DNA from: Meira nashicola
Taxonomy: Eukaryota; Basidiomycota; Exobasidiomycetes; Exobasidiales; Brachybasidiaceae
Direction of reading: 5' to 3'
Assembly (NCBI GenBank): GCA_001600355.1
Contig: BCJU01000002.1
Location: 3,348,001 to 3,412,000, forward strand
DNA length: 64,000 nt
Below, one piece after another: positions 39,552 to 50,864 of this stretch. Each line of letters starts with the position of its first letter. Positions within the stretch are counted from its first letter, which is position 1. The notes beneath the pieces were generated by a model that did no database searches, was not told the DNA's origin, and was given only the letters and a program-made list of their open reading frames with translations. The translations under genes and the position numbers were made by a program.

Positions 39552-42185
39552 ATGATGCGTGCACAACGCCCCCTTCATCTTTCTTCGACCAAATCCTTGC
39601 GATCAGCCACGCAAGTACGTAACGTTAAGAGTGTAATTCGTCATGCCAGTTCAGGTCCTACTCCCAATGCTACCCCTAAAGCAAGTGGCACATCTCGTAA
39701 TGTGTTCATCTTTGGTACAGCAGCTGCCGTTCTCCTAGCAGGTGGCTACACATTCACCAATTCTCAATTACAAGCTGAACATAGTAAACCAGTTTTGGGA
39801 GATGTTCGTCCACATCCATTATGGTCTCCACCTACGCGTGCACAAATGATTGCAGCTCTTAAAGAATCAAGCGGAAAAAGTTTACGACCTCAAGCCAGTA
39901 GAACGTATGAAGATAATACAAGTTTGGAAAAATTACAAATTGAGGCAAAATCAAGTACTCCTTCTCCTTCTGCCAGAGCAGATGCACACGGTGAAATTGT
40001 GATGCGTGATGGAGATGAAGAAGGTGATGGGTTTGATCTTTTGATCGTCGGTGGTGGTGCAACGGGAACGGGTGTTGCTGTAGATGCCGCCACTCGTGGT
40101 TTATCGGTTGCAATGGTGGAAAAGGATGACTTTGGAGCTGGAACTTCTTCCAAATCAACAAAGCTGATCCATGGTGGTGTCCGTTACTTGCAAAAGGCCG
40201 TGTTTGAACTTGATTACGATCAATACAAAATGGTACGAGAAGCACTTCATGAACGTAAGACATTCTTGCATATCGCACCTTATCTAAGTGAACATTTGCC
40301 AATCATGTTGCCCGTTTACCGTTATTGGCAAATTCCTTATTACTTTGCCGGTACAAAGATGTATGACATGTTGGCAGGATCGGAAAATATGGAATCTTCT
40401 TACTTCTTAGGACGCGGCAAAGCACTCGAAGCTTTCCCTATGCTTAAAGCAAATGGTTTGACAGGTGCAGTTGTGTATTATGATGGCCAACATAACGATA
40501 CAAGAATGAATGTCGCTTTAGCCTTAACTGCTGTTCATCATGGTGCTGTTGTTGCTAATCACACTTCCGTCGTATCTTTACGCAAGAAGCCTGTTCCAGG
40601 AAAGGTTGATCAAATTTGCGGTGCTCGTCTTAAAGACGAATTGACTGGAGAAGAATGGGATGTTCGCTGCAAAGCTGTTATCAACGCAACAGGTCCATTT
40701 AGCGATGCTCTCCGAAAGATGGACGTTCCTACCGCTCAAGAAATTGTTGCTCCTTCTTCCGGTGTTCATATCACTTTACCTGGCTACTATTCTCCAAGAG
40801 ATATGGGTTTGATCGATCCTCAAACTTCTGATGGTCGTGTGATCTTCTTTTTGCCTTGGCAAGGAAATACAATCGCTGGTACGACCGATACAGCTGCACC
40901 AGTTGAAGCTCACCCTAAACCAAAAGAAGAAGAAATTCAATGGATCTTGGATGAAGTGCGCAATTATTTGAGCCCTGACATTAAAGTTCGTCGTGGAGAT
41001 GTTTTGAGTGCTTGGAGTGGATTGCGACCGTTGGTTAAAGATCCTGCAGCAAAAGATACTCAAAGTTTGGTCCGTAATCATATGATCAACGTGAGCGAAT
41101 CCGGCTTATTAACTATCGCAGGTGGAAAGTGGACAACGTATCGTGAAATGGCAGAACAAACTGTCGACAAAGCAATTGAAACATTCAATTTGAAGCCTGT
41201 ACGTGGATGTGTTACCAAGCAAACACGTTTATTAGGAAGTCATGGATGGAGTAAGACAATGTACGTCAAACTTTTACAACGTTTCGGTCTGGACACAGAT
41301 GTAGCTAAACATCTTTCTCACACTTATGGTGATCGTGCTTGGAGTGTTTGTTCGATCGCCGAATCCACTGGTGCTCGTTGGCCAGTACACGGTAAGCGTA
41401 TTGATCCCCTTTATCCTTACATCGAAGCAGAAATTCGTTACGCTTGCCGTGCCGAATATGCAGCCAGCGTTCCCGACTTTATCGCTCGTCGAACACGTAT
41501 GAGTTTCTTAAACGTAGAAGCAACTGTCGAAGCATTACCAAGAGTGATTGAATTGATGGCAGAAGAGTTAGGTTGGGATAAGAAACGCAGAGATGCAGAA
41601 TTCACAAATGCAATTGACTTTTTGGGAAGTATGGGTTTGCAACCCGCAAGATTACAACAATTACGTCAAACATCACTTGATGAAACGATAAAAATACTCA
41701 AAGAGAAAGGAACTATAACTGCAGGAATACCATATATGGGCAAAGCAGCCGTTACAGGACAAGATGTTAATGCAACAATTGTTTCAAGAGCTCAATTTAC
41801 AAGTGATGAAATGATTCAATTACGTAGAAGATTTGATCAAATGGATACAAATGCAGACGGTAAAGTTGATACGAAAGATTTACAAGAAGTTTTACAAAGA
41901 TTAGGATATCATAATGTTGACGAAAGAACAGTTACCGGTATCATTTCTGAAGTTGACGTGAACAAATCAAACGCTTTACACTTTGAAGATTTCCTAGACG
42001 TTTGTGCAACTTTGAAAGACGTTAAATTGGAAAATGCTTTTACCGATATCGTTCGTGAAGTAGAAGAAGCAACTGGATCAAAACCTATCCTTGGAGATGC
42101 TATCGGACCTGCAGCTCGTGAACAATCAGCCCGTCGTGATGAACGTCGAAGTGTTCCTGCAGAGCGTTCAGGCGGTGGCTGGTAA
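39552..42185 (+). CDS. GUT2: Mitochondrial FAD glycerol-3-phosphate dehydrogenase with EF-hands
   Basis: This inner-membrane enzyme oxidises glycerol-3-phosphate to DHAP and passes electrons to ubiquinone. The product is 877 residues. It has an Arg/Ser-rich presequence, then a hydrophobic stretch at about 50-66 (FIFGTAAAVLLAGGY). The FAD Rossmann motif is at about 161 (DLLIVGGGATGTGVAV), followed by SSKSTKLIHGGVRYLQK. The C-terminal DAO domain includes GGKWTTYREMAEQTVDKAIE. An EF-hand pair lies near the C-terminus. Loop 1 (765-776, DTNADGKVDTKD) is canonical. Loop 2 (802-813, DVNKSNALHFED) lacks the position-6 Gly. Animal GPD2 has such hands, while budding yeast Gut2 does not. The ATG is at 39552, directly followed by a second ATG. 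Confidence 0.95.
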   Translation: MMRAQRPLHLSSTKSLRSATQVRNVKSVIRHASSGPTPNATPKASGTSRNVFIFGTAAAVLLAGGYTFTNSQLQAEHSKPVLGDVRPHPLWSPPTRAQMIAALKESSGKSLRPQASRTYEDNTSLEKLQIEAKSSTPSPSARADAHGEIVMRDGDEEGDGFDLLIVGGGATGTGVAVDAATRGLSVAMVEKDDFGAGTSSKSTKLIHGGVRYLQKAVFELDYDQYKMVREALHERKTFLHIAPYLSEHLPIMLPVYRYWQIPYYFAGTKMYDMLAGSENMESSYFLGRGKALEAFPMLKANGLTGAVVYYDGQHNDTRMNVALALTAVHHGAVVANHTSVVSLRKKPVPGKVDQICGARLKDELTGEEWDVRCKAVINATGPFSDALRKMDVPTAQEIVAPSSGVHITLPGYYSPRDMGLIDPQTSDGRVIFFLPWQGNTIAGTTDTAAPVEAHPKPKEEEIQWILDEVRNYLSPDIKVRRGDVLSAWSGLRPLVKDPAAKDTQSLVRNHMINVSESGLLTIAGGKWTTYREMAEQTVDKAIETFNLKPVRGCVTKQTRLLGSHGWSKTMYVKLLQRFGLDTDVAKHLSHTYGDRAWSVCSIAESTGARWPVHGKRIDPLYPYIEAEIRYACRAEYAASVPDFIARRTRMSFLNVEATVEALPRVIELMAEELGWDKKRRDAEFTNAIDFLGSMGLQPARLQQLRQTSLDETIKILKEKGTITAGIPYMGKAAVTGQDVNATIVSRAQFTSDEMIQLRRRFDQMDTNADGKVDTKDLQEVLQRLGYHNVDERTVTGIISEVDVNKSNALHFEDFLDVCATLKDVKLENAFTDIVREVEEATGSKPILGDAIGPAAREQSARRDERRSVPAERSGGGW

Positions 42186-42475: not shown

Positions 42476-43930
42476 TTATTCATCTTCTTGCCATGTCCCT
42501 TTGGCTTTCTCTTCACTCATTGCTTGCCATGCTTGTGCAAACAGATCATCTTCTTCATCACGCTTCTTCTTTCGGTCTTCTGTTTGTTGTCTCTTGTGTG
42601 CTTTATTAATTGGATCAGCATGATCATCTTCGCTTGTCGTGTCATCACTCATGCTCACATCCCCTTCATTGTCGTATTGAAGATGACTTTGATGTCTTTG
42701 CGATGCCGATTTGATTAATCCGGCAAGATTCGTAGACGTTCCACTGCCGAATTCTTCGGTCAAATCATCTTGATCGTTAGGCAAGTCTATTTGAATACGT
42801 TGAGGTAAATTAGCAATAGAATTAGTTGGCGTAGTGTCCATATCAGGAACACGTTCATGAATTTGTAGAGAATCGATTAAATCCAAAAATCCTTCTGCTG
42901 TACCTTTGGTATCAGCACGACGTTTTGCATGATCGCGTGCAACGATTGTAGCTTGACCGGATAAGACGTCGTCGCGATTGTCTGATTGTGAGAGTACGGG
43001 TGAAATTGGTGTGGGTAAAACTGGTGACATGACTTTATCAGGTCTAGGAGAATTGATTACATCTTCATCATCTGATAAACGATCCACCTCTCCTTTTTCT
43101 TCTAAATCTTCCAATAATTCAATTTCTGTCCAATGTTCTTCATCCATTAAACGTTCCCATTTACCTCCTTCTTCTACTTCATTTCCCAATCCGTGATGAT
43201 CTTTTATTCCGCTTCCAAACATTTCATCACTAACGTCTTTTTGTACTTTTCGCGTTGATTCTCCATTATTCAAAACCCAACGTGACACCCATTCTCCTCT
43301 TCGCCAACATGCATTACTGCAAAACGAATTTTGACCGCCTGCGTCATCCCTTTCATCACGTTCCATCGTTCGTCTACTTAATGAGATTCGATAACGTGGT
43401 GCATCAAGCGGTAAAGCTGAATTGGATTGTGATAGATGTGGCTTCTTTGGCTTTTTATCACAAGTAGGATAAGCGCATTTGTATGCTAAATGTCTTTCTT
43501 GTAAAATTTGTAACCAAGCCGGTAAAGATAATTGAGTAAGTGCTCTTTTTAGCATACTTTTTTCTAATTGCGATCCTGAAGCGATTAACATATGTTGCCA
43601 CATAAACACTTTTGCTTCTTTTTGTCTTCTTTCTTGAAAACTTTCCGCTAATAATTTTACGTCAGACATTTGAACAGAAGAAGGTGGCATAAATTGATTT
43701 CGATCTTGTTGTTGTTGTTGATGATGTTTATTCATCGCCCATCTTGATGGTCCTGCTTGATTAGAAGCATGAATTGCAGCTCTTGGATTAGCTGCCATTT
43801 GTTTAAGTTCATCAGGTGGTAATTGAACCAAAAGATTCGCATGTGCTTGTGGCATTCTACCTCTTGATGTCATTGTTGTAATTGTGCCATTGGCTCTTGG
43901 CCGATCGTACGAATCCTGTCGTGTGTTCAT
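42476..43930 (-). CDS. RTR1: RTR1/RPAP2-type RNA polymerase II CTD phosphatase
   Basis: RTR1-family proteins dephosphorylate the Pol II C-terminal domain (Ser5) and help nuclear import of Pol II. The 484-residue product has helices at about 90-145 (LLAESFQERRQKEAKVFMW). The family zinc site follows: CAYPTC near 155-160 and FCSNACWRRGEWV near 203-215, with RYRISLSRR between. The rest is acidic and probably disordered, ending with SEEKAKGTWQEDE. A short Gln run occurs near residue 70. The ATG is at 43928-43930. The family call rests on the Cys spacing and surrounding residues. Confidence 0.85.
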   Translation of the reverse strand: MNTRQDSYDRPRANGTITTMTSRGRMPQAHANLLVQLPPDELKQMAANPRAAIHASNQAGPSRWAMNKHHQQQQQDRNQFMPPSSVQMSDVKLLAESFQERRQKEAKVFMWQHMLIASGSQLEKSMLKRALTQLSLPAWLQILQERHLAYKCAYPTCDKKPKKPHLSQSNSALPLDAPRYRISLSRRTMERDERDDAGGQNSFCSNACWRRGEWVSRWVLNNGESTRKVQKDVSDEMFGSGIKDHHGLGNEVEEGGKWERLMDEEHWTEIELLEDLEEKGEVDRLSDDEDVINSPRPDKVMSPVLPTPISPVLSQSDNRDDVLSGQATIVARDHAKRRADTKGTAEGFLDLIDSLQIHERVPDMDTTPTNSIANLPQRIQIDLPNDQDDLTEEFGSGTSTNLAGLIKSASQRHQSHLQYDNEGDVSMSDDTTSEDDHADPINKAHKRQQTEDRKKKRDEEDDLFAQAWQAMSEEKAKGTWQEDE

Positions 43931-44356: not shown

Positions 44357-46654
44357 ATGGCTCCTTATAATCCTATGAAAAAGCATATGGATAAATTAGA
44401 TGAATGGGGTTCGGATCATATGAAAAAGTTTAATAATCAACGTGATGCAGGAAGTGGTGCTTCTTTTTCGGATAAGTTAAAAATTGCAAGAGGAAAAGAT
44501 GATAGATGGGAAAGAACAAAAAAGCCAAACGAAACTGAAGAAGGAGAAACAGTTGTTCCAAATCGATCTGCTAGATTACCACCAGCACCAACAAATACTT
44601 ATGCTGGAGCTCGTACTACAGGCGTTCCACCACCTCCGCCTCCTCAACGAAGCGGCAGTGGTGCACCTCCTCCACCGCCCAGTCGTTCGACTAATTCAAT
44701 AGCCACTGCTGTACCACCACCATCACTTCCAAGACGGATGAACAACGAAGCTGGAACGAGTAATCCTCCACCCCCTTATCCTTCTTCTGCACCTGCTCCA
44801 CCCACAAGAGGTTTAAGTCAAAATAACATGGCAACAGGATCAGAGCATATAGAATTCTCTAAATTTGGACCGGAAGATAAAGAGGCATTCTTTGATTTGC
44901 TAGATGAGTACTTTGCCCAACGATTGAATGTTTCTACCGGTAATTCATCATCTGCTACTGCTGCTCGTGTCAATCCAATTGCTTCGGCTGACATCGTCAC
45001 TACCTCTCCTTCTGCTGCTTCTCAAAAGGCTTTTAGACGTGATCCACCCAAACCTTCTGGACCTGGAATAAAATCTACGATTGGCAAAACAACATCTGCT
45101 ACACCCGCAGTGCCTAAAACAGCCACTAGTGCTTGGTCATATCCGAAATTGACTGCATCTAACCATCCTTATTCCGAAACATGCAAAGCATTAAGTTGTG
45201 CCTCGTTTATGGTCTATAGAGATTCTTATCCAGAATGGTCAGGGAATATGCCATGGTTCTCACAACCAAATCCTATGCCTTCGTCTTTGAAAGGAAGGAG
45301 AGATATTGCATGGTCATCTTCAAGTATATATAGAGGACAAGATCATACTTTGATGGGTGCTTGTTTATTTGAAGATTTGAGCTGTCTTTGGTGGAGAATA
45401 CAATGGAAAGGCAACGCGCCTGCTGCGACTGCTCAAGTAGATTGTGCGTATCGTGAACCACCGGAAGCATTTGATGATGAAGGTAGGTTGCAAGAAGCAA
45501 GTCGTGGATTTGGAGATTGGATCGCAGGATTCGCCGAACAGAGTGAAGCCAATAAACGACCGGTTGGAGATGGCGAATGTTGGACTTTGGCTGCAGAAGC
45601 GATCAAGTATACTAACAATACAGCGCAATTGACACCTGATAATCGTTTGGTGACCTCTATTGGACGTACACATGGACATTTAATTTATGCTGCAAAAGCG
45701 GAAAAAGGTAAAGGTCAATGTGGAAGGTGGAGAGGAGGTGATCGGATAAGAAACAATTGGGGTGGTATCCGACGTGGTGATATAATTGAATGGAAGACGG
45801 CACGATGTAGCGAAGCAGGTGCACCAAAAGGAAGTTATATGACATTAGGTGCACCAGAGCATACTGCTGTCATTATCTCCAATTCACCTGTTCCAGAGCG
45901 ATTAAGTCAAATGAAAGGAAAAAAGAGCAAAACAAACAAAGAAGATACTCATTATAGTATCTTAGGCGTAAAGCCAACTGCGACACAAGCTGAAATTCGT
46001 TCGGCTTATTTGGCCGGTGCACGTAAACATCATCCCGACCGACACGTTGGAGTAGTGAATCAGGATGATGAGCATATTCAAAGATTGAATGAAGCCCATG
46101 CAACGCTAACGGATGCAAGACTACGAGAAGCGTATGATATACAGCTGCAAAGTGGAAGGGCAAACAAATCTACTCGATCCAATCAAAGTAGAATATCTGC
46201 AACTGTTGATTTAGATTCTATGGAAACTGTTGATGGAAGTGAAACTTTAACGTTTTTTCATCCTTGTAGATGTGGTAATGGATTTTATGTTGATGAAAAT
46301 CAACTTCAACAATCTTCTGCTCCTATCGTTGGATGTTCAGGTTGTAGTGAACAAATCAAAATTGTTTCTGATCCTTCGTTGGTGACAAAAGAAGCAGAAG
46401 CAGAAACAGAAGAGGAAGATGTGGATGATGATGTTACTCAACCAGAATTAGCGCCTTGGGAATTAGGATCGTTTACAACTATTGAACAAAGTGCAGGTCA
46501 AATTCCAACAAGAAGAACGTATAATTTAGCAGCAGATAGTTTTACAGAAGGTGAAATTTGGATTTATAGACCTGTATGGGAAAAAGAATATTTAGGTGGT
46601 GCTGTTCAACCTGGTTGGCCACCTGCTTTACCTAATTGGCAATCATTGACGTAA
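44357..46654 (+). CDS. BBC1-type actin-patch protein with an internal DPH4 (J-domain plus zinc finger) module
   Basis: One open frame encodes 765 residues from the ATG at 44357 (MAPYNPMKKHMDKLDEWGSD). Residues about 60-160 are proline-rich (PPPPPP runs), typical of actin-patch proteins. From about 250 a BBC1/AIM3-like cysteine-protease fold begins: AWSYPKLTASNHPYSETC, then DGECWTLAAEAI (Cys near 406), HGHLIYAA (His near 438) and GDIIEWKTARC. After HTAVIISN a complete J domain appears at about 529-595 (HYSILGVKPTATQAEIRSAY, with the HPD of KHHPDRH). A CSL-type zinc finger follows at about 635-670 (CRCGNGFYV ... CSGCSEQIKI), matching DPH4/DNAJC24. The last ~75 residues (EGEIWIYRPVWEKEYLG) read like the end of the BBC1-type domain. 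DPH4 supports diphthamide synthesis on eEF2. I see no consensus donor or stop that would separate the modules. Confidence 0.75.
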   Translation: MAPYNPMKKHMDKLDEWGSDHMKKFNNQRDAGSGASFSDKLKIARGKDDRWERTKKPNETEEGETVVPNRSARLPPAPTNTYAGARTTGVPPPPPPQRSGSGAPPPPPSRSTNSIATAVPPPSLPRRMNNEAGTSNPPPPYPSSAPAPPTRGLSQNNMATGSEHIEFSKFGPEDKEAFFDLLDEYFAQRLNVSTGNSSSATAARVNPIASADIVTTSPSAASQKAFRRDPPKPSGPGIKSTIGKTTSATPAVPKTATSAWSYPKLTASNHPYSETCKALSCASFMVYRDSYPEWSGNMPWFSQPNPMPSSLKGRRDIAWSSSSIYRGQDHTLMGACLFEDLSCLWWRIQWKGNAPAATAQVDCAYREPPEAFDDEGRLQEASRGFGDWIAGFAEQSEANKRPVGDGECWTLAAEAIKYTNNTAQLTPDNRLVTSIGRTHGHLIYAAKAEKGKGQCGRWRGGDRIRNNWGGIRRGDIIEWKTARCSEAGAPKGSYMTLGAPEHTAVIISNSPVPERLSQMKGKKSKTNKEDTHYSILGVKPTATQAEIRSAYLAGARKHHPDRHVGVVNQDDEHIQRLNEAHATLTDARLREAYDIQLQSGRANKSTRSNQSRISATVDLDSMETVDGSETLTFFHPCRCGNGFYVDENQLQQSSAPIVGCSGCSEQIKIVSDPSLVTKEAEAETEEEDVDDDVTQPELAPWELGSFTTIEQSAGQIPTRRTYNLAADSFTEGEIWIYRPVWEKEYLGGAVQPGWPPALPNWQSLT

Positions 46655-46812
46655 TTCTTGTAAATTGTATGATAGTATATACTTACAGATTTTTGTATTG
46701 AAAAGCAGTTAGAGACTTAAACGCGGAAAATAAATCTGCGTAGGATTAGTACTACTTTCCACAAGCGCGTGTTGAGAAAAAATAAACTTGATTCCGAACA
46801 ACAACGACCAAG

Positions 46813-47397
46813 ATGTCAATGATCAGGATAGGAATATTGGGAAGGCAGAGTTGGATGGTGGGATTATCTTTACGTCAAATTTCCACAACTAGGATAATAC
46901 AAACATCATCAAATCCTTCTTCTGTTCCTCAATTAACTTTATATACCGGTACAGATTGTCAATTATGCGATGTAGCGAAAGAAGTTTTAGAAAAAGTTGC
47001 AAAAGAGGTAAGGGTTATAATAAATAATATAACATCATTCCTATACTGAAATTATTCAATTTTTTATTGTTGTCAGTCACATTTTGATTTACATCTCTAT
47101 GACATTCGTGATGATTCTTTACCGGATATTGCAAAGTGGAGAAGGGCATATCAGTATGGTGAGTGAAGCTTAAGTTTAGATTTCTTGACGAACATCAACC
47201 GCTCAGGCTTGCTTTTTGTTGCTTATTTAGACATTCCGGTATTACACTTGAATGGAAAAGGTGAATATGATTGGATCAGAGAAAAGGAAGAAATTACTCT
47301 AACTTAATTCACTCTTCTCTCTACAGAAATTGCACGACATAGACTCAATAAAGAAAGTGTTTTAGATCAAATAAAGCAAGCTACCAATCAGTCCTAA
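46813..47397 (+). CDS. Mitochondrial glutaredoxin-like protein (DUF836/YDR286C type)
   Basis: There are four exons: 46813-47007, 47077-47158, 47231-47260 and 47327-47397. The introns are 69, 72 and 66 nt (donors GTAAGG, GTGAGT, GTGAAT; acceptors TCAG, TTAG, ACAG). The spliced product is 125 residues. The frame stays open across all junctions, including a 30-nt third exon. After a basic N-terminal signal (residues ~1-37) it has the thioredoxin-fold motif LTLYTGTDCQLCDVA with a CxxC. HLYDIRDDSLPDIAKW and YQYDIPVLHLNGKEIARHR follow, with the cis-Pro in DIPVL. This matches the short glutaredoxin-like C5orf63/YDR286C family. The redox role is inferred. It is the most intron-dense gene in the window. 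Confidence 0.82.
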
Positions 47398-47468: not shown

Positions 47469-49454
47469 TTATACAGCACTTGCCGGTGTAACATTACGTA
47501 CTTTCCTTGCTATCCAAAATTCAGGTGCATATTCATATGTTAACATTGAATATGGATTACCAGTATATGGTTGAGGTTTCATCGTTCGTTGTTCTTCAAT
47601 AACGAATCCCATTAATTCAATTAATCCAATCGCTTCTTCTAACGTTAATTCTATACTGATTTCTCCATTCGCTGCACCTTCGAAATGCCATAATAATGGT
47701 CCTATATTTATCCAAACGCCATCGATGGGTAAAACATGATTAATCACTTCCAAATAAAGTGCAAAATTACGTGCAGTATCGATAAAGAAACATGTTGCAA
47801 TCGAATGCCATGCACCACGTTCTTGTTCTTTCGAATAAACTTCAACGAATTCACCTGCAACCATTGAAAAATCAATATGTGAAGGTAAATCAGTAGGATT
47901 GATATCGGGAATCTTTATAGCTCGTAACATATCCGTTGCCGTTCTCCAATTAGAAGAAGAATGAATGAAAGGATAAAGGACGTGTTGGTTGGTAGAAGTT
48001 GTCTTGTTTAGGATAAAGTGTGACGCTAGTAACATGAAAAAGCTGAATTCGTTCCCTTGACAACTGAAACCTTGCCATGCAATCTCAAAAGCAAGTCGAC
48101 CTAAGCCTGCACCTGGAACTAAAATTCGTATCTGTCCACGTTGAGCAGACGGTACATGGGCAAATCGTTTTTCCAGGGCTTCCAGAATAGGATCATAAGC
48201 CGCTTCACGTTCTGAAACACCCTCTTCACTCCAATCACGTACGAATTGTTTCAACGTACTTCGAACTTTATCGACATCGTGATTGGATACTTGCTTCTCT
48301 TTCCCTGCTTCTTTTGAGGAAGGTGTGGCGCTTTGTGATCTAGTTTTGACACGATGATCTCTTCCACTACTTCCACTACCGCTTGATTCGTTATGTTCTC
48401 CTTCTGCTGATATATGTTTTTCAGGTGGCACTTCTCTCTTTGCGCTCTCTAATTTACCTTCACTTCTGCTTAATTCTTCTGCTTCACCCAAAAATCCTTT
48501 TGAGTCAGACACAATTTGCGATAAAAAGTCTGAATTTCTACGTATCCGATCATCAATTTCGTCTAGTCTGGCTTTGAATCCTCTACCACCTATGATCATA
48601 GAATGTTCCTCGGTCGCAGAACCTTCTCTTTCTAATAGCGGCCCAGGAAGTGCAGGTCCTAAAGAAGAGAATAATAATCGATGTGATCTAGGTAAAGAAT
48701 AAAATGATTTCCTTCTTGCATTATTTGCTGCTAAGGAATAACTCAGATAAGTATCAAATGCTCTTAGCACACTTTCGAAATGTGCACGTTCTTTATCCTG
48801 ATCATCTTCTGAACTTGAATTGTTTGAATTGATTTGTTGCTCTTCTACTTCTCTTTCTTCAGATTGTGCTGGTAATCTCTCTTGTTCTTCTGTCATTTTT
48901 GTATCATTAATCCTTCCGCGTATCGGCCTTCCTCTTGAGATCGCTCTACTCCACTCTTCCGGTTCTGCACTTATTGCACGCCTATATCGATAAGAATTCA
49001 AATCTCCTGAATCATAAGAAGAAGCAGAAGAAGTTGAAGCATTAGAAGAATTCGAAGTTCTCCTATCAGAACGTGAAGTTGATCGATTAGCAGTTGCACT
49101 TGTTGCGGCGGCGGCGGCGGCGGCGGTAGTTTGATCAACTTTTGCGTTTCTCGGATAGGGAAACCAAGGCCTTTTCTCGTATGTAGATGTAGCTGTAGAT
49201 GATGTAGGTACACCTGTTAGAATGACAGCTGATTGAGAAATCGTTCTTCTGGAACTAGAATTATTTCTCGGGTGAGGATCGTTTGGCGTTGGAGTTTTTG
49301 ATCGAGCCGGACGTCTAGACGTTCCTAATGGTTTAATAGGTCTTGCTTGTCTTTGTTTCGATTCTACTGATGACGTTCTCTCCGCCTTTTCCTCTTTATC
49401 CTCGATTCTATTGTCATCATATCGTTCATCAGATGAAGATGGTCGAAAGTTCAT
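47469..49454 (-). CDS. Carnosine N-methyltransferase-like (N2227 family) protein
   Basis: This is a SAM-dependent methyltransferase of the N2227/CARNMT1 family (yeast YNL092W). The 661-residue product starts at the ATG at 49452-49454; the frame extends upstream only via TTG. The first ~225 residues are disordered, with a poly-Ala run near 113-120 encoded by consecutive GCC codons. The family-specific part follows: NARRKSFYSLPRSHRLLFSS, RDWSEEGVSEREAAYDPI, the SAM-binding motif ILVPGAGLGRLAFEIA (near 440), CQGNEFSFFMLLASHFILN, FFIDTARNFALYLEVINHVL and GVWINIGPLLWHF. Human CARNMT1 methylates carnosine; the substrate in fungi is not shown here. Confidence 0.9.
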   Translation of the reverse strand: MNFRPSSSDERYDDNRIEDKEEKAERTSSVESKQRQARPIKPLGTSRRPARSKTPTPNDPHPRNNSSSRRTISQSAVILTGVPTSSTATSTYEKRPWFPYPRNAKVDQTTAAAAAAATSATANRSTSRSDRRTSNSSNASTSSASSYDSGDLNSYRYRRAISAEPEEWSRAISRGRPIRGRINDTKMTEEQERLPAQSEEREVEEQQINSNNSSSEDDQDKERAHFESVLRAFDTYLSYSLAANNARRKSFYSLPRSHRLLFSSLGPALPGPLLEREGSATEEHSMIIGGRGFKARLDEIDDRIRRNSDFLSQIVSDSKGFLGEAEELSRSEGKLESAKREVPPEKHISAEGEHNESSGSGSSGRDHRVKTRSQSATPSSKEAGKEKQVSNHDVDKVRSTLKQFVRDWSEEGVSEREAAYDPILEALEKRFAHVPSAQRGQIRILVPGAGLGRLAFEIAWQGFSCQGNEFSFFMLLASHFILNKTTSTNQHVLYPFIHSSSNWRTATDMLRAIKIPDINPTDLPSHIDFSMVAGEFVEVYSKEQERGAWHSIATCFFIDTARNFALYLEVINHVLPIDGVWINIGPLLWHFEGAANGEISIELTLEEAIGLIELMGFVIEEQRTMKPQPYTGNPYSMLTYEYAPEFWIARKVRNVTPASAV

Positions 49455-49958: not shown

Positions 49959-50864
49959 TCATGAAACGATTGGATTTCTGGAGACGTCAAATGTGATTCC
50001 ATTTTGCACTTTTCCGCCAACTTGTTTAGCAGTAATTGTTCCATCATCATTTCCGAAATAAGCAGCTTGACACATATTTGTGAATAATCCAACTTCAATA
50101 ACACCTGTTAAAAGTTTAATCGTTTTAAGTAATTCATCGGGTTGGTTCATAAACTTTTCATCAAATTGAGCATCAATCACAAAATTACCATTATCCGTTA
50201 CCACTGGCCCAGCTTTTGCTTTGCCCATTCGAAGAGCAGCATTTGTACTTCCTAACTTGACTAACTGTCTTTGTACTTTACTCCATGCGAATTCTGCTAC
50301 TTCTATCGGAACGCCTTGTTTCCATCCTGTTCCAAGAATTTCACTATTTTTACGGAAATCTGCAACGATGATAAATGTTTTTGCTGCTTCTGCCAAGACT
50401 TTTTCACGTAATTGACAAGCACCACCACCTTTGATCGCGTTTAAATTTGAATCTACTTCATCGGCTCCGTCGATTGTTACATCAATTTCGGGAAATGAAT
50501 CAACATCACCCAATTTTAATCCACTTTTAACAATTAATTCTTTCGATTGAAATCCAGTAGGAACGAACCATCTATTTGAATTAACTTTTTGGCCTTGTTG
50601 TACAATCCTTTCTACAACATAAGGAACTGTAGATCCTGATCCGATTCCAATGATTTGATGTTCTGGTTTAACATGATTATCTACTGCAGCATATGCAGCC
50701 GCTCTTTTTGCTGCTTCTACACCTTGTAAAGCGTTCAATTGTAGTGGTGCAGCAGCCATTGTAGAAAAATGTGAAAGAGGTCTGACGATTTGCCAAGGTG
50801 AAGATAGCGTGCTCGTTGTTGTCTTTAGTGCTGATCGACAAGGGATACTCAATGATCGAAGCAT
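49959..50864 (-). CDS. RKI1: Ribose-5-phosphate isomerase A
   Basis: RKI1 interconverts ribose-5-phosphate and ribulose-5-phosphate in the pentose phosphate pathway. The 301-residue frame begins with a 35-residue basic Ser/Thr-rich leader (MLRSLSIPCRSALKTT). A second in-frame ATG at residue 36 (MAAAPLQLNALQGVEAAKRA) gives a normal-length cytosolic enzyme. Active-site segments are GIGSGSTVPYVVERI, FPEIDVTIDGADEVD, IKGGGACQLREKVLAEAAK and the C-terminal VIEVGLFTNMCQAAYFGNDD. The leader looks like a mitochondrial signal, so alternative starts could give dual targeting. The ATG is at 50862-50864. Confidence 0.94.
   Translation of the reverse strand: MLRSLSIPCRSALKTTTSTLSSPWQIVRPLSHFSTMAAAPLQLNALQGVEAAKRAAAYAAVDNHVKPEHQIIGIGSGSTVPYVVERIVQQGQKVNSNRWFVPTGFQSKELIVKSGLKLGDVDSFPEIDVTIDGADEVDSNLNAIKGGGACQLREKVLAEAAKTFIIVADFRKNSEILGTGWKQGVPIEVAEFAWSKVQRQLVKLGSTNAALRMGKAKAGPVVTDNGNFVIDAQFDEKFMNQPDELLKTIKLLTGVIEVGLFTNMCQAAYFGNDDGTITAKQVGGKVQNGITFDVSRNPIVS

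Follow-up and report, generated by a model that had tools for sequence, protein, structure and literature searches.

A DPH4-type module nested within an AIM3/BBC1_C domain in Meira nashicola and related fungi

Gene content of the window

The window, i.e., the whole stretch of 64,000 nucleotides of Meira nashicola DNA analysed here, carried at 44357-46654 (+) a single stop-free frame of 765 codons, for an AIM3/BBC1-type protein with a nested DPH4 module. A closely similar start was found in the homologues P0002, P0003 and P0011, and the start codon at 44357 is supported by the MAPYNPMKKHMDKLD common to the window protein and P0011, from Exobasidium rhododendri, in the alignment. Three Pfam-A families scored over their cut-offs in the 765-aa frame: AIM3_BBC1_C (PF25459, 119.6 bits, cut-off 27), in two stretches of which the best spanned aa 367-523 and model positions 6-140; DnaJ (PF00226, 59.7 bits, aa 531-594); and Zn_ribbon_CSL (PF05207, 43.7 bits, aa 616-670).

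By sequence and alignment, the N-terminal region (aa 1-256, 44357-45124) was mostly of low conservation, with proline-rich stretches. Part 1 of the host domain (aa 367-508, 45455-45880) included Cys408 of a GECW motif (45578-45580) and, in its C-terminal strand HTAVII, His502 (45860-45862). Linker 1 (aa 509-529, 45881-45943), with a SPVPERLS-like start, contained a poorly kept internal in-frame ATG (aa 519, 45911-45913). The DPH4 module consisted of a J domain (aa 531-594, 45947-46138), having its HPD at 46031-46039 (aa 559-561), and a CSL zinc finger (aa 616-670, 46202-46366), with its cysteines at positions 637, 639, 660 and 663. An acidic, variable linker 2 (aa 673-696, 46373-46444) led to part 2 of the host domain (aa 697-745, 46445-46591), running from PWELGSFTTIEQS to WIYRPV and covering PF25459 model positions 136-177. 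Here Glu710 of the IEQS motif (46484-46486), which we take to be a candidate third active-site residue of the host domain, was Glu in 16 of 17 alignment rows and Asp in P0012.

These results agree with the original prediction that one frame leads from BBC1-type sequence through a complete DPH4-like module, with a J domain, its HPD and a four-cysteine CSL finger, into a WIYRPV tail ending the BBC1-type domain. The naming of the host as BBC1-type held for the domain itself; the protein is a short one carrying an AIM3/BBC1_C domain. As in DPH4/JJJ3/DNAJC24 (human Dph4, PDB 2l6l), an HPD-bearing J domain was followed by a four-Cys CSL zinc finger, and the last cysteines lay in a CSGCSE motif shared with four of seven free-type DPH4s (P0036, P0037, P0038 and P0040). 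The automatic names in the source records, “DnaJ domain/CSL zinc finger” for P0002 and both “alpha/beta-hydrolase” and “Diphthamide biosynthesis protein 4” for another homologue, P0111, show that automatic annotation detects the domains.

Five neighbouring genes were recognized. The frame at 39552-42182 (+) combined an FAD-dependent oxidoreductase, an alpha-glycerophosphate oxidase C-terminal domain and EF-hands, and is therefore of the glycerol-3-phosphate dehydrogenase type. A Rtr1/RPAP2-family protein with long tails was encoded at 42479-43930 (-). Downstream were a putative glutaredoxin-like DUF836 gene at 46804-47049 (+), scoring 25.3 bits against a cut-off of 26 and probably extending to ~47400, with further exons recognized by eye; a carnosine N-methyltransferase-type gene at 47472-49454 (-); and a ribose-5-phosphate isomerase gene at 49962-50861 (-).

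Two flanks of one host domain

Scored singly against PF25459, the first flank reached 102.6 bits and the 64-aa tail 21.7 bits, below the cut-off. In a profile scan of the genome the second host stretch appeared as a separate match at C2:3394481-3394597 (model 136-177), with 19.5 bits and below the cut-off when alone. With the insert removed, the joined flanks gave 129.3 bits in one stretch, covering model positions 6-177 of 180, as expected if both belong to one continuous domain.

An AlphaFold2 model of aa 257-765, built with 31 sequences (model residue r corresponding to aa r+256), had a mean pLDDT of 84.6 and a pTM of 0.64. Confident strands flanked the insert on both sides, at aa 502-506 (HTAVI) and 705-710 (TTIEQ), and further strands of part 2 were at aa 718-723 and 731-738. 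As a control we modelled P0032, an uninserted protein from Sympodiomycopsis (mean pLDDT 70.8 and pTM 0.58 for a model that includes the long disordered N-terminus). The equivalent strands were residues 491-500 and 512-519, with a short turn between them. The spacing from HTAVxx to EQS was 22-35 residues in seven uninserted proteins, as opposed to 184-219 in 12 fused ones. Together, the model strands, the short turn in P0032 and the difference in spacing indicate that the insert sits in a hairpin turn, and the host domain would still fold from both of its parts. The original prediction of a nested insertion in one continuous BBC1-type domain is thus borne out, also in other lineages.

The host domain probably has a CHAP/NlpC-like fold. 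Cys408, His439, Asp475, His502 and Gln711, the last adjoining Glu710, were kept in all 17 rows of an alignment of 12 fused and five uninserted proteins, and Cys408 and His502 were also invariant in a separate alignment of 31 rows. The Foldseek lists for the window model were occupied by J domains and CSL folds. For the uninserted P0032 model (pLDDT 70.8) Foldseek gave no match at E ≤ 0.001, the best one (E 0.11) being an unrelated enzyme; re-ranking within Foldseek’s own list by VIA-align brought CHAP-type and NlpC-P60 enzymes to the top. No CHAP or NlpC/P60 match was listed by Pfam for the window protein, P0032, P0109 or P0118. Between the host domain and CHAP/NlpC-P60 amidases, such as the endolysin LysIME-EF1 (6ist), there was thus no significant Foldseek or Pfam match.

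A second AIM3/BBC1_C gene was found in the genome at C2:3621785-3622351, in a 1376-aa frame having proline-rich stretches and no GECW motif. From its sequence, it is perhaps a non-catalytic paralogue.

Conservation of the nesting

The homologue search compared proteins by length and by the 5-residue words that they have in common. With the window protein as query, scoring was confined to the 7993 candidates with the most words in common, so that the list of fused proteins is a lower bound. This search gave 33 proteins at E ≤ 1e-5, 11 with all three domains and 22 with the host domain and neither DnaJ nor CSL. Starting from the most divergent fused protein, 68 proteins were obtained, query included: seven were fused like the window protein, three combined a carboxylesterase with DnaJ and CSL, and the other 58 had the host domain and neither DnaJ nor CSL. 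A further search gave 69 proteins, eight of them with DnaJ and CSL and none of those eight named Exobasidium. It yielded a thirteenth fused case, the fragment P0035, whose sequence begins within the J domain and extends into the host tail. Looking in related species thus recovered the junction in at least 11 further proteins and in P0035.

The three-domain order and the junction were identical in all 12 alignable fused proteins (P0001-P0012). Only one fused relative bore an organism name, P0011 from Exobasidium rhododendri (Ustilaginomycotina, Exobasidiales), with 57% identity over the searched region. The N-terminal region was absent from P0004-P0010, and most of the protein from P0035; we take these for partial or exon-limited predictions. 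The HPD and the four CSL cysteines were present in 12/12 rows. Mean pairwise identity among the 12 rows was 71% for host part 1, 61% for the J domain, 57% for the CSL finger and 72% for host part 2, compared with 41% for linker 1 (14-29 residues) and 31% for linker 2 (15-32 residues). Both the host and the DPH4 module therefore look constrained, the linkers less so.

No protein named Meira or Acaromyces was among the matches of the searches with the window protein and with the most divergent fused protein. Annotated genomes of these two Exobasidiales exist, and their gene models may differ at this locus.

Among basidiomycete AIM3/BBC1_C proteins, P0031 (Jaminaea), P0032 (Sympodiomycopsis) and P0118 (Ceraceosorus) resembled the window protein in having a proline-rich region and a domain with GECW and HTAV. 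In P0032 and P0118 the N-terminus was similar as well.

DPH4 and diphthamide genes in the genome

Diphthamide is a special modification on the translation factor eEF2. Its first step is made by the DPH1-DPH2 iron-sulphur enzyme, for which DPH4, with DPH3, is a J-type partner. Excerpts of two publications describe Dph4 as a J-type chaperone acting in this step alongside Dph1-Dph3 (PMC6193676) and its exact role as remaining elusive (PMC8153317).

We searched the genome (17.88 Mb in 20 contigs) in six frames, exon by exon. The CSL profile gave three matches, two of them above the cut-off: an 86-aa DPH3-type frame, the window gene, and a third match, weak at 17.1 bits, inside a 226-aa frame that by eye is of the Zim17/DNL type. 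The DnaJ profile gave 29 matches, and no other one adjoined a CSL match in this six-frame scan, which intron-split domains could escape. Of the seven matches obtained with P0111, which combines an esterase with DPH4, the window gene alone matched the J/CSL part. The six-frame search for another DPH4 thus left the window copy as the only recognisable one. DPH1/2-type matches at two genes and one DPH6-type match were also present. Since no other DPH4 was found and the DPH1/2-, DPH3- and DPH6-type genes are kept, the fused gene most likely provides DPH4; this gene-content argument is circumstantial.

Foldseek with the window model gave human Dph4 (2l6l) as the best match, at E 2.6e-6. The TM-scores to 2l6l were low (0.11/0.34), so the relative placement of the J domain and the CSL finger is different or uncertain.

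Alternative readings

Splicing could leave the J/CSL block in some transcripts and remove it from others, as an exitron or nested gene, yielding a plain AIM3-like protein plus a fused or DPH4-only product. Pairing the GT donors found from aa 500 to 531 with the AG acceptors found from aa 668 to 712 gave 13 combinations that drop the block and leave the frame open. However, the only donors were GTCATT, GTTCCA and GTCAAA, none of which matches the usual fungal GTRNGT type, and splicing-out was rejected as the main reading. A DPH4-only product also fits poorly with the fused rows, none of which (0/12) stopped after the CSL finger and all of which continued, in contrast to the standalone free-type DPH4s (P0036-P0042), which terminate 12-24 residues past the last cysteine. 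The third-position GC was low in both linkers, which argues weakly in the same direction, the linkers having just 21 and 24 codons. We consider retained or alternative splicing of the block unlikely.

The module could instead have been repurposed, no longer serving diphthamide but bringing Hsp70 or iron to its AIM3-like host, for example in endocytic turnover. The J domain is a general Hsp70 recruiter, and the module is tethered to a protein of AIM3/BBC1, by its name presumably an actin-patch family. Two observations speak against this: the module is the sole DPH4 found in a genome retaining DPH1/2-, DPH3- and DPH6-type genes, and the CSL cysteines, unneeded for Hsp70 recruitment, are kept in 12/12 rows. 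Repurposing is therefore quite improbable. The co-purification of yeast Bbc1 with Nfs1, given in an excerpt of PMC5675994 in which the “Aim3” matches include AIM32, was set aside.

The original prediction had also offered two products from one locus, the second starting at the ATG at 45911; this codon is real, in frame and just ahead of the J domain, but Met was kept at its column in only 2/12 fused rows (in 3/12 anywhere in linker 1). As the zinc finger is not followed by a stop codon, translation from this ATG would also run on through the host tail, to a product of ~27 kDa compared with ~84 kDa for the whole protein. An internally started DPH4 is therefore very unlikely.

A second host for the DPH4 module

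Three proteins, P0111 from Testicularia cyperi (Ustilaginales), P0138 and P0139, resembled the window protein in that a longer frame encloses the DPH4 module and continues past it in conserved sequence. Their host is unrelated to the AIM3-like one: a carboxylesterase comes first, then DnaJ and CSL, and then a conserved tail of ~150 residues. The best carboxylesterase stretch ended at profile position 207, 329 and 328 of 515 in P0111, P0138 and P0139, respectively. Four comparisons of the tail as the C-terminal part of the esterase gave null results. Joining the flanks of P0138 did not extend its carboxylesterase match in Pfam; by BLASTP of the P0138 tail against seven frames, drawn from six esterase loci in the genome, the best match had E 0.57; among the best 60 of 160 PDB matches of P0138, no best stretch went beyond residue 404; and a profile-profile comparison of the three tails gave no match. 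Nesting of DPH4 within the carboxylesterase is therefore likely only.

Two trees were computed from the J and CSL blocks. With all 23 rows, the 13 AIM3-nested rows needed two label changes, and the free-type P0042 (branch 2.13) was placed among them, behind starred branches. In the second tree, of 21 rows, the long branches P0039 and P0042 were dropped and P0038, also long (1.87), was kept. Here the 13 AIM3-nested rows formed one side of a branch, with a support of 71/82, which is not strong. The three carboxylesterase-nested rows were not one clade in the second tree, and their monophyly was not rejected (AU p 0.138). P0111 and P0138 grouped with the free-type P0036 and P0037 on a tree of the modules (97/95 and 97/96). 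A single clade of all 16 nested rows, i.e., one common origin of the nested modules, was rejected at AU p 0.015, for a post hoc grouping tested after the first tree had been viewed and with 2/23 rows dropped. Given the different host and the separate origin on this tree, fusion of DPH4 to a host probably took place on at least two occasions.

Discussion

Judged from sequence, the arrangement is a real, conserved domain nesting and apparently an unreported one. In a literature search at the level of titles and abstract starts we found no published report of DPH4 fused to or nested in an AIM3-like or carboxylesterase host; the gene fusions described in an excerpt of PMC3541065 involve DPH6-type genes.

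The reading that we favour, and hold to be fairly likely, is a fixed insertion of a whole DPH4 into the AIM3/BBC1_C domain, with a product that supplies the DPH4 function. The complete unit, J domain plus CSL finger, would have become fixed in a beta-hairpin of the host domain, between its two strands, and on its two linkers it would work as the DPH4 of the cell while tethered to the host. The two functions would be carried side by side, and mutual regulation would not be needed.

A more far-reaching idea, speculative and rather doubtful, treats DPH4 as a wandering cassette of the Ustilaginomycotina, nested at least twice, in an AIM3-like protein and a carboxylesterase. In AIM3 it would lie between the strands carrying the His and the Glu/Gln of a CHAP-like active site, where loading with Hsp70 or iron could gate the host and tie the modification of eEF2 to the actin cortex. 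The connection of diphthamide synthesis with actin patches raised in the original prediction comes from the name of the host family and is a possible one at most.

Under the favoured reading of a fixed, functional insertion, a lineage whose sole DPH4 seems to be tethered within a larger protein suggests that a small, diffusible form is no requirement for DPH4, and the nested form is a natural construct for testing which of its parts are important. Judged from the second, unrelated host, the DPH4 gene seems to tolerate incorporation into other proteins unusually well, which makes it a rare case for the study of how whole proteins turn into inserted domains.
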